DNA of 39,547 nucleotides from a virus: positions 1 through 39,547 of the IMG/VR virus record IMGVR_UViG_3300047322_000209, one strand, 5' to 3'. The notes beneath the pieces are model-generated. The model made no database searches and was not told the origin of the DNA. It saw nothing but the letters and a program-made list of their open reading frames with translations. Below are positions 5,475 through 8,104 of this stretch, in pieces; position 1 is the stretch's first letter, and every line of letters begins with the position of its first letter. A program made the position numbers and the translations under genes.

Positions 5475-5528
5475 CATGTGCTCAAGGGTGCGCACGTTTG
5501 GGCAAATGCGGGTAGCCTTGAGTACATG
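5475..5528. other. attP: Candidate attP site
   Basis: A 54-bp imperfect inverted repeat: left arm CATGTGCTCAAGG (5475-5487), right arm CCTTGAGTACATG (5516-5528), with partial symmetry continuing inward to GTTTGG/GCAAAT. About 20 of 27 positions match between the half-sites. The centre is the GG at 5501-5502. Large serine integrases use attP sites of about 50 bp with this design, and in phiC31 attP lies directly before int. The right arm contains the int start codon. Recognition is by structure and position, not by a known sequence. Confidence 0.65.
5513..5518 (+). promoter_or_regulatory. Candidate -10 for a leaderless int transcript
   Basis: TAGCCT, a good actinobacterial -10 type, lies 7 nt before ATG 5526, so transcription would start at or next to the start codon. 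No strong ribosome site is present and the -35 is weak. Leaderless mRNAs are common in Streptomyces. Confidence 0.45.
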
Positions 5529-6944
5529 AGCCTTTCACAGAGCATCAGCGCCACCAACGGCCAGCGCCCGGCCATAGCCGCTTACATCCGGCTGAGCCGT
5601 GAGAACGAGGATTCCGCCAGCATCGAGACTCAGCGGACAGCCGTCCGGCGCTGGGCTGAAGCCAACGGGTTTGACCCTGCCGACCTGGTCGAGTACATCG
5701 ACTCAGGGGTGTCCGGCGCTAAGGCCCTGGAAGCGCGCAAGGGCATGCGCCAGCTCATGGCCGAACGGCCGGTCGTTGCTGTCGCCTGGAAGCTGGACAG
5801 GTACGCCCGCAGCGTCAGCGAATTCCTACGGCTGGTCGCCTGGGGCGAGGCTCATGGGGTCCGGCTGGCCACCACGGACAACACCATCAACACTGCTTCG
5901 CCGACCGGCCGCATGGTCGCTGTGGTGCTCGCTGCACTCGCTGAGTGGGAACGCGAGATGATCAAAGGCCGCATCATCGACGGCCACGCCACCCGCCGTG
6001 CACAGGGCCGCTGGGGCGCTGGCCAGCCTCCCTACGGCTACGCCATCGAACGGCGGGACGGCGCTGCCTACCTGGTCCGCAATGAGCCTGAGGCAGCCAA
6101 GATCCGGGAAGCCGTAGACGCACTCATCAACGGCGGAACGGTCACCAGTACCGCCCGCATGGTGGACATCAGCGAGCCTCAGTGGCGACGCATGCTGAAG
6201 GCCCCGACCCTGCGCGGACAGCGAGCACACAAGGGCAAGCTGATCCTGGCTGAGGACGGGATTACGCCTATCCAGTTCGCTGAACCCATCCTGAACGCTG
6301 CGGAGCACAAGGCCGTGCGGGACAGGCTGCTGGCGCTGGCTACCGGCCAGGACCGTGCGCCCCGTGGCGAGTCTCCCCAGTGCGCCGGAATGGCCTGGTG
6401 CTACAAGTGCGGCGGACCGCTGAGCGGCGGGAAGAGCGGTGCTGGCGTGCGCCTGTACAAGTGCAAGCTGGGCCACGTGACCATGTACGCCGAGACCATT
6501 GATCAGCGGGTCGAGGAAGCGTTTCTGGCCACCTGGGGCGAGATGGCCGAATACACCGTGCGCCTTGAAGGCGGAAACGATCTGTCAGACCAGATGATCG
6601 AGGCGCAAGAGGCTGCCGAACGGCTGGCCAGCCAGATGGCATCCGCCGGACCGCTCATGTTGACCAAGCTGGGAGAGATGGCCGAACAGCTGGAAGCCAC
6701 GTACGCCGCTCTAAGGGCCTCCCATGACCCAGACGTCAGGGAAGTACTAGAACCCACTGGGAGGACGCTGGGGGACGCCTGGAGGGCCGACACGGGGTCT
6801 CGCGGCCGGCTTCTACGGGACGTGGGCCTGTCCATCACGCTGTACCCCAAACAGCGAGCCGACCGGCTGGAGATCTCTTGGGCCATAGGCGGAGATGACG
6901 TCATGCTCGCCGAGTACCTGGGTGATCTGGACGCAAGCGCGTGA
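5526..6944 (+). CDS. int: Large serine integrase
   Basis: A 472-residue large serine recombinase. The catalytic domain begins IAAYIRLSRENEDSASIETQ with nucleophile Ser24. LDRYARS near residue 95 supplies catalytic Arg, and ALAEWEREMIKGRI belongs to the long E-helix. The recombinase domain follows. A zinc ribbon has C286, C292, C295 and C313 near GLPL-type loops, and then comes a coiled-coil region with EAAERLASQMASAGP. It integrates the phage at attB by cutting attP with 2-bp stagger. ATG 5526 is chosen because homology starts just after it; GTG 5478 would extend it across attP. A terminator follows. The partner directionality factor may be 30166-30894. Confidence 0.96.
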   Translation: MSLSQSISATNGQRPAIAAYIRLSRENEDSASIETQRTAVRRWAEANGFDPADLVEYIDSGVSGAKALEARKGMRQLMAERPVVAVAWKLDRYARSVSEFLRLVAWGEAHGVRLATTDNTINTASPTGRMVAVVLAALAEWEREMIKGRIIDGHATRRAQGRWGAGQPPYGYAIERRDGAAYLVRNEPEAAKIREAVDALINGGTVTSTARMVDISEPQWRRMLKAPTLRGQRAHKGKLILAEDGITPIQFAEPILNAAEHKAVRDRLLALATGQDRAPRGESPQCAGMAWCYKCGGPLSGGKSGAGVRLYKCKLGHVTMYAETIDQRVEEAFLATWGEMAEYTVRLEGGNDLSDQMIEAQEAAERLASQMASAGPLMLTKLGEMAEQLEATYAALRASHDPDVREVLEPTGRTLGDAWRADTGSRGRLLRDVGLSITLYPKQRADRLEISWAIGGDDVMLAEYLGDLDASA

Positions 6945-7420: not shown

Positions 7421-7516
7421 CGCGCATGCGTGCAGTGTGGTGGCCATTGGCGTGGCCACTAGGGACCGCAATCCCTGACCCGGTAACGGGTACCGGTTCG
7501 ATTCCGGATCGCGCGT
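7421..7516 (+). ncRNA. tRNA-like element with long variable arm (degenerate, Cys-like)
   Basis: A canonical T arm (CCGG, TTCGATT, CCGG at 7493-7507) follows a variable-type hairpin CCCG/CGGG and an anticodon-like stem AGGGA/TCCCT holding CCGCAA (GCA would be Cys, with C33). The acceptor pairs only over CGCGC/GCGCG, and the D region forms GTGGCC/GGCCAC instead of a normal arm. Probably a decayed or atypical tRNA. Confidence 0.35.
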
Positions 7517-7522
7517 GAGCAA

Positions 7523-7597: not shown

Positions 7598-7713
7598 TGG
7601 CACAGGGATAGGTTCCTGACCGGTTCCGATGCTTTGTGCCTTGGGTGAAACCGGCCCCGACTGGCCAGGGTGGTTCCTGGTTACAGAGGGCGGCGAGTAA
7701 CCCTAAATTTCGG
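7598..7713. other. Spacer with RNA hairpins in the tRNA array
   Basis: No gene or convincing tRNA. It contains GGCACA/TGTGCC around 7600-7640, CCAGG/CCTGG, and GGTTAC/GTAACC (7679-7702). These may be processing structures or relics of tRNAs. Confidence 0.35.
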
Positions 7714-7864: not shown

Positions 7865-7939
7865 TGGCCCCTAGCTCAGTCAGGTTAGAGCGCCGCCCTG
7901 ATAAGGCGGAGGTCCCTGGTTCAAATCCAGGGGGGTCAA
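7865..7939 (+). tRNA. tRNA-Ile(GAT)
   Basis: 75 nt: acceptor TGGCCCC/GGGGTCA, D arm GCTC/GAGC with a 10-nt loop, anticodon stem CCGCC/GGCGG with loop CTGATAA, T arm CCTGG/CCAGG, discriminator A. Confidence 0.94.
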
Positions 7940-7943
7940 CGGA

Positions 7944-8018
7944 GTCAGCGGCGATCCCCGAAAGCGCGGGACAACGGAGGCATGCACTCCGTCTACCGGA
8001 GTTCCCGGTACCGCTGAC
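7944..8018 (+). ncRNA. Unconventional tRNA-like cloverleaf
   Basis: 75 nt that fold into a near-perfect four-arm structure: acceptor GTCAGCGG/CCGCTGAC (8 bp), D-like TCCC/GGGA, anticodon-like ACGGAG/CTCCGT with loop GCATGCA, T-like TACCGG/CCGGTA with loop AGTTC. It lacks the GGTTCRANTCC box and U33, and the variable loop is about 1 nt. It sits in register between tRNA-Ile and tRNA-Leu. It may be a tRNA mimic, decoy or decayed tRNA. Confidence 0.55.
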
Positions 8019-8023
8019 AGCTT

Positions 8024-8104
8024 CCGCTGATGGTGAAATGGTAGACACGGCAGGCTTAGAACCTGCTGCCGGAAGGCATGGGGGTTCGACTCCCTCTCAG
8101 CGGA
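8024..8104 (+). tRNA. tRNA-Leu(TAG)
   Basis: 81-nt class II tRNA: acceptor CCGCTGA/TCAGCGG, anticodon stem GCAGG/CCTGC with loop CTTAGAA, long variable arm TGCCGGAAGGCA, T arm GGGGG/CCCTC, discriminator A. Starts with C rather than G. Confidence 0.92.

Follow-up and report, generated by a model that had tools for sequence, protein, structure and literature searches.

A conserved structured-RNA family, apparently undescribed, in the gaps of phage tRNA arrays

Introduction

T4 stable RNAs species 1 and 2 (bands C and D) are small non-tRNA RNAs of unknown function that come from a phage tRNA cluster. They measure 120-140 nt and belong to an enterobacterial myovirus. It has long been asked why phages carry tRNA arrays, whose gaps annotation tools regard as empty. 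In the widest sense, the occurrence of non-coding RNAs close to phage tRNA islands is established: GOLLD and ROOL, phage or prophage RNAs whose function is unknown, often lie near such islands (PMC12286853). They are the nearest known kind to our family by location and are about ten times larger, with lengths of about 600 to >800 nt and other structures, compared with 60-90 nt here. Phage tRNAs have also been reported to counter tRNA-cutting defences (PMC10264068, PMC11555353). Like those tRNAs, our element is encoded in an array, and a counter-defence setting is possible; they, however, are genuine translating tRNAs that act by replacement or by resisting cleavage, whereas the element has no decoding features.

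We analyzed a 39,547-base IMG/VR virus contig, referred to as the window. By its DNA matches it resembles phiC31-type Streptomyces phages, and a recombinase-like protein at 5478-6944, assigned by its sequence and a gene order common to Sycamore and Shaeky, points to the same type. A first-pass annotation had described a tRNA-sized cloverleaf in its tRNA array that lacks the tRNA consensus. Here, we show that this cloverleaf belongs to an RNA family that is apparently new, is under clear selection on its structure and was overlooked even in sequenced, cultured Streptomyces phages.

Results

The four arms of the cloverleaf lie exactly where they had first been placed (Table 1). The T-loop box and U33 are missing, as the first-pass annotation stated: the T-like loop reads AGUUC and position 33 is a C. 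Its account of the fold thus stands, but it overlooked the leader, the 12-nt core and the family as a whole. The minimum free energy of the element is -37.6 kcal/mol, compared with -24.7 +/- 3.2 in 200 dinucleotide shuffles (z = -4.0), none of which folded as low.

Table 1. Features of the element and its surroundings (window coordinates unless another contig is named)
Feature	Position	Strand	Basis and remarks
Upstream tRNA-Ile(GAU)	7865..7939	+	Rfam RF00005, 67.4 bits; ARAGORN; last base is N73, leader directly next
Leader CGGA, from tRNA N73 to closing helix	7940..7943	+	Conserved in family
P1 5' strand GUCAGCGG, 8-bp acceptor-like helix	7944..7951	+	Pairs with 8011-8018; covariation
Junction CGA	7952..7954	+	Invariant in cloverleaf subtype (alignment A3)
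D-like arm UCCC-CGAAAGCGC-GGGA	7955..7971	+	Stems 7955-7958/7968-7971; cloverleaf subtype only; covariation
P2 anticodon-like hairpin ACGGAG-GCAUGCA-CUCCGU	7974..7992	+	Fold; compensatory changes at outer pairs
Conserved core GGCATGCACTCC, 12 nt; family form GGCAYRCACTCC	7979..7990	+	Alignments A1, A3
P3 T-like arm UACCGG-AGUUC-CCGGUA	7994..8010	+	Flush with P1, no T-loop; pairing kept, letters changed in relatives
P1 3' strand CCGCUGAC	8011..8018	+	Covariation with 7944-7951
3' spacer AGCTT	8019..8023	+	5 nt here; 2 nt (AA) in most relatives
Downstream tRNA-Leu(UAG)	8024..8104	+	Rfam, ARAGORN
Second element	7598-7713; L010 1578-1685; L013 1094-1205; L137 1564-1677; L136 2281-2394		

A BLASTN search of 50,697 phages with the window element alone returned short chance matches only. 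It failed because the stems vary, and relatives had to be found through patterns of the core. The first ones came from contigs that we reached through a neighboring HNH gene, in tRNA-sized gaps of their tRNA arrays; in several of these gaps we recognized a relative, whose closing helix differs but encloses the motif GGGGCATGCACTCC. Scanning 2.9 million viral contigs for the core only (GCGGGGCAYRCACTCC) then yielded 38 stretches. The 28 that lie in tRNA arrays all show the CGGAG leader and a closing helix with complementary strands; the other 10 are not close to any tRNA and resemble chance matches. Further scans enlarged the set to 40 distinct sequences at 66 loci on approximately 57 phage contigs, nine of which are counted twice. 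Because the presence of leader, core and P1 was a condition of the detector and of some scans, the constancy of these parts is partly by construction; the core-only scans had no such built-in requirement for leader or P1.

Family members share one layout: the N73 of a tRNA, CGGA, the 8-bp P1, an optional D-like arm, a GG-CAYRCACU-CC hairpin, a flush P3, usually AA, and the next tRNA. The window fits it, with its CGGA leader, a P1 of 8 bp that begins with G-C, a GGCAYRCACUCC core and a P3 flush with the 3' strand of P1. Of the 40 distinct element gaps, 39 have (C)GGAG after the end of the tRNA, compared with 1 of 188 other inter-tRNA gaps. Nine distinct sequences, including the window, form a cloverleaf subtype with CGA, the D-like hairpin and YAACG or YUACG. 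In the 31 sequences of the short subtype, a short GNRA-like or AUAU-like stub or junction takes the place of this hairpin. The type of this junction tetraloop is coupled to the first P3 pair (U or C), which may reflect docking of the D-like stub on P3 or simply the existence of two clades. P2 pairs in two registers, with 6 bp around GCAUGCA in the window and around CAYRCACU in most short members; four short members have GGG-CUA-CCC instead of the P2 core. These register shifts and core-less members weaken any model built on a single loop. The reading of the P2 loop as an anticodon loop is also weak, because no member's loop is that of a tRNA anticodon arm.

Compensatory changes in relatives, which had been proposed as a check on the cloverleaf, are present in all of the arms that we tested. 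In 15 short members, all eight P1 pairs form and seven change on both sides. An alignment of the short subtype made without structural information has 98.8% of its cells paired and 11 pairs changed on both sides. Across the whole structure of this subtype, we counted 34 compensatory cells, compared with 9.3 in shuffles (0 of 500 reached the observed value), and slid controls were all far lower. In seven cloverleaf members, pairing in P1 and the D-like arm is 100%, with 9 of 11 pairs changed on both sides (0 of 500), including two of the three pairs tested in the D-like arm. Compensatory changes also occur in relatives at the outer pairs of P2, as in L134 and L153. The first P1 pair is G-C in each of the 40 distinct members, and the remaining seven differ among them without loss of pairing, although pairing was a requirement of the detector. 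Up to four pair types occur at one P1 position, which makes accident very unlikely, though the controls leave shared ancestry in.

Covariance models gave a consistent picture. Model R3, for which five cloverleaf members were used and the window and its sister contig left out, finds the window with 60.1 bits and E=1.3e-10, and finds short members as well. R1 and R2 were built separately from the two subtypes, and R2, from cloverleaf members, matches short members at the loci of R1; therefore, the two subtypes are one family. The sister contig is 98.2% identical to the window over 5.5 kb and about 99% identical in the flanking tRNAs, compared with 82.9% in the element. The element is thus the most changed part, with changes mostly in P2 and P3 that keep the pairing. 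Because the fold is kept while the letters change across approximately 57 contigs, we conclude that the family is real; judged from these sequence comparisons, it is almost certainly a conserved structured-RNA family under strong structural constraint.

Nearly all copies sit between two tRNAs of an array, always in the orientation of the tRNAs, and the neighboring tRNAs vary among members. Each of the 66 loci has one copy, although arrays contain up to 30 tRNAs. The element is patchy, occurring in several phage lineages and missing from many related tRNA arrays. The cultured Streptomyces phages Sycamore, Success and Shaeky carry it, in all three cases in a gap that the annotation leaves blank between its tRNAs. 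Contigs of the L085/L088 type look like Manuel/WRightOn-like Streptomyces phages and not like phiC31, so the element is present in more than one phage lineage. Outside phages, a pattern search of 84,980 species genomes gave no acceptable match (12 bacterial genome hits were chance-like), nor did a model search of 395 actinobacterial genomes with strict filters and no positive control, and a plasmid search gave no family match. This absence from the bacterial genomes searched is consistent with a phage-borne gene.

The element shares with tRNAs its cloverleaf topology, its size, its position in the array and a T-like arm flush on an acceptor-like helix. Unlike a tRNA, it has no T-loop box, D-loop GG, U33 or encoded CCA, its closing helix is 8 bp, and several family members have D-like loops of 4 nt. 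The tRNA-loop signatures are missing in relatives as well as in the window, which shows that it is not a decayed tRNA. Neither ARAGORN nor Rfam RF00005 finds anything at 7944-8018, even at E<=10, while both flanking tRNAs are called and the eight real tRNAs around the element score normally in both searches. Searching the window against Rfam 15 gave only tRNA matches at gathering scores, none overlapping the element at E<=10, and no GOLLD or ROOL match. We also found no paper describing the family in a literature search that reached few subscription journals. The RNA matches no known family and is apparently undescribed.

Discussion

A tRNA-sized cloverleaf without a T-loop box, lying in a tRNA array, could be a decayed tRNA or other pseudogene whose fold arose by chance. 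We consider this scarcely credible: covariation in all tested arms refutes it, the members occur in distinct phages and share a non-tRNA core and leader, and no Rfam tRNA score appears at E<=10. The first-pass annotation had argued from perfect pairing that simple decay was improbable and had suggested a new tRNA-like RNA among other readings, and the compensatory changes across the family bear out both points.

Two other explanations would place its function in cis. The element might assist nucleases in cutting the neighboring tRNAs apart, as a processing or insulating element whose RNA is a by-product. It always adjoins tRNAs with a fixed 4-nt and a mostly 2-nt spacer, and its P1/P3 stack resembles the acceptor/T stack that RNase P and RNase Z recognize. 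However, a single copy is present in arrays of up to 30 tRNAs, most tRNA junctions in the same arrays do without one, 32 distinct tRNA-tRNA gaps of <=5 nt manage likewise, and many related arrays have none; this role also leaves the CAYRCACU core without a purpose. We therefore disfavor the processing element proposed in the first-pass annotation and regard it as unlikely. Alternatively, the conserved core between variable stems has the look of a riboswitch and GCATGC is palindromic, as might be expected if the element were not an RNA gene but a cis RNA or DNA-level regulatory element (a recombination or attachment site, terminator or riboswitch). This is more improbable still, because CACGCA, CATACA and CACACA variants break the palindrome, no fixed gene lies downstream (the next tRNA varies), and the orientation always matches that of the tRNAs.

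One copy per locus, changing neighbors and absence from many related arrays instead point to an accessory RNA gene and not a general processing element. Together with the absence from the bacterial genomes searched, this pattern favors a trans-acting phage RNA. The best explanation is probably a gene for a small non-coding RNA that forms a cassette in phage tRNA arrays, and the RNA itself is likelier than not to act in trans. The fixed spacers to the flanking tRNAs suggest that tRNA maturation enzymes free the element. It would be transcribed jointly with the tRNAs and set free as they mature: cleavage behind the upstream N73 would create the 5' end, and RNase P cleavage at the 5' end of the next tRNA would create the 3' end. 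The predicted product is an RNA of about 84 nt (7940-8023). This stable RNA would use its tRNA-like body to bind a protein that handles tRNA-shaped RNAs, such as a host tRNA-targeting nuclease or another tRNA factor, and the conserved CAYRCACU loop would provide a specific contact.

Because phage tRNAs are reported to counter tRNA-cutting defences, a decoy with the shape of a tRNA suggests itself, though as an unproven proposal. The RNA could conceivably be a decoy or antagonist of a tRNA-handling factor, a role that we put forward tentatively; the decoy for a host tRNA-cutting toxin that the first-pass annotation suggested is a candidate of this kind. The broader idea, that tRNA-shaped, non-decoding phage RNAs are excised by tRNA maturation and serve as shape decoys that bind a host tRNA-handling or tRNA-targeting protein, is likewise speculative and rather doubtful. 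If it were true, phage tRNA arrays would combine tRNAs with several structured RNA effectors as mixed cassettes.

Other candidate roles for the core did not hold up. The search for a target or partner gave none: we found no convincing complementarity to the core in E. coli rRNA, an actinobacterial RNase P RNA or tmRNA region, or the rest of the window. Its reverse complement, GGAGUGYRUGCC, resembles a ribosome binding site and start codon; this antisense reading was rejected, as the GGAG lies just 3 nt from the AUG and the window contains no second copy. A His-codon reading, based on the CAY triplet in the loop and an 8-bp acceptor with G-C as in tRNA-His, was set aside because the core is missing in four members. 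Pairing of the leader GGAG with the core CUCC was set aside too: both are invariant, which leaves no room for covariation, and the leader stays in members without that core.

The same arrays contain other structured gaps. In 74 phage tRNA arrays, we counted 245 distinct inter-tRNA gaps, with 101 of 46-100 nt, 60 of 101-200 nt and just 32 of <=5 nt. A closing helix of at least 7 bp occurs in 22 of the 123 distinct non-family gaps that measure 45-200 nt, compared with 1.5 expected. Many tRNA-sized gaps may hide unannotated RNAs. Given the other conserved elements in comparable gaps, the arrays could be a store of RNAs not yet described.

In one cluster of 26 distinct gaps, the tRNAs flank a second element that is conserved and not a tRNA, with a length of about 107-116 nt (Table 1). 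It contains, in this order, a GGTGC..GCACC hairpin, CCTGGGTGAAACCGGCCC, a stem-CTAGTCA-stem and GCGAGTAGCCCTAAA, and the copy in the window has no Rfam match. L007 (2459-2543), L020 (2492-2636) and L099 share another structured gap element, which recurs with CTAGAAGCCTC and is closed by a long helix. Streptomyces phage Rowa (L137) has a tRNA-sized gap at 1894-1957 with a GGGG-ATAGTCA-CCCC hairpin in a longer stem, which gives no match to the family model. In Streptomyces phage Shaeky (L136), an unannotated GGGGTAGGACGGTTTCGAC...GGGGTTCGAATCCCCGCTACTCCA at about 2548-2633 has the look of a tmRNA tRNA-like domain with no tag-coding part. Finally, ARAGORN missed a tRNA-like gene at 7422-7522 of the window (Rfam 7428-7516) and at about 204-300 of L005. 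Its acceptor and D-like arm are both long, a second hairpin resembles a variable arm, the anticodon-like loop contains GCA and the T-loop, TTCGATT, is a real one; it matches tRNA-Sec (RF01852) weakly, with 26.6 bits, below the cut-off.
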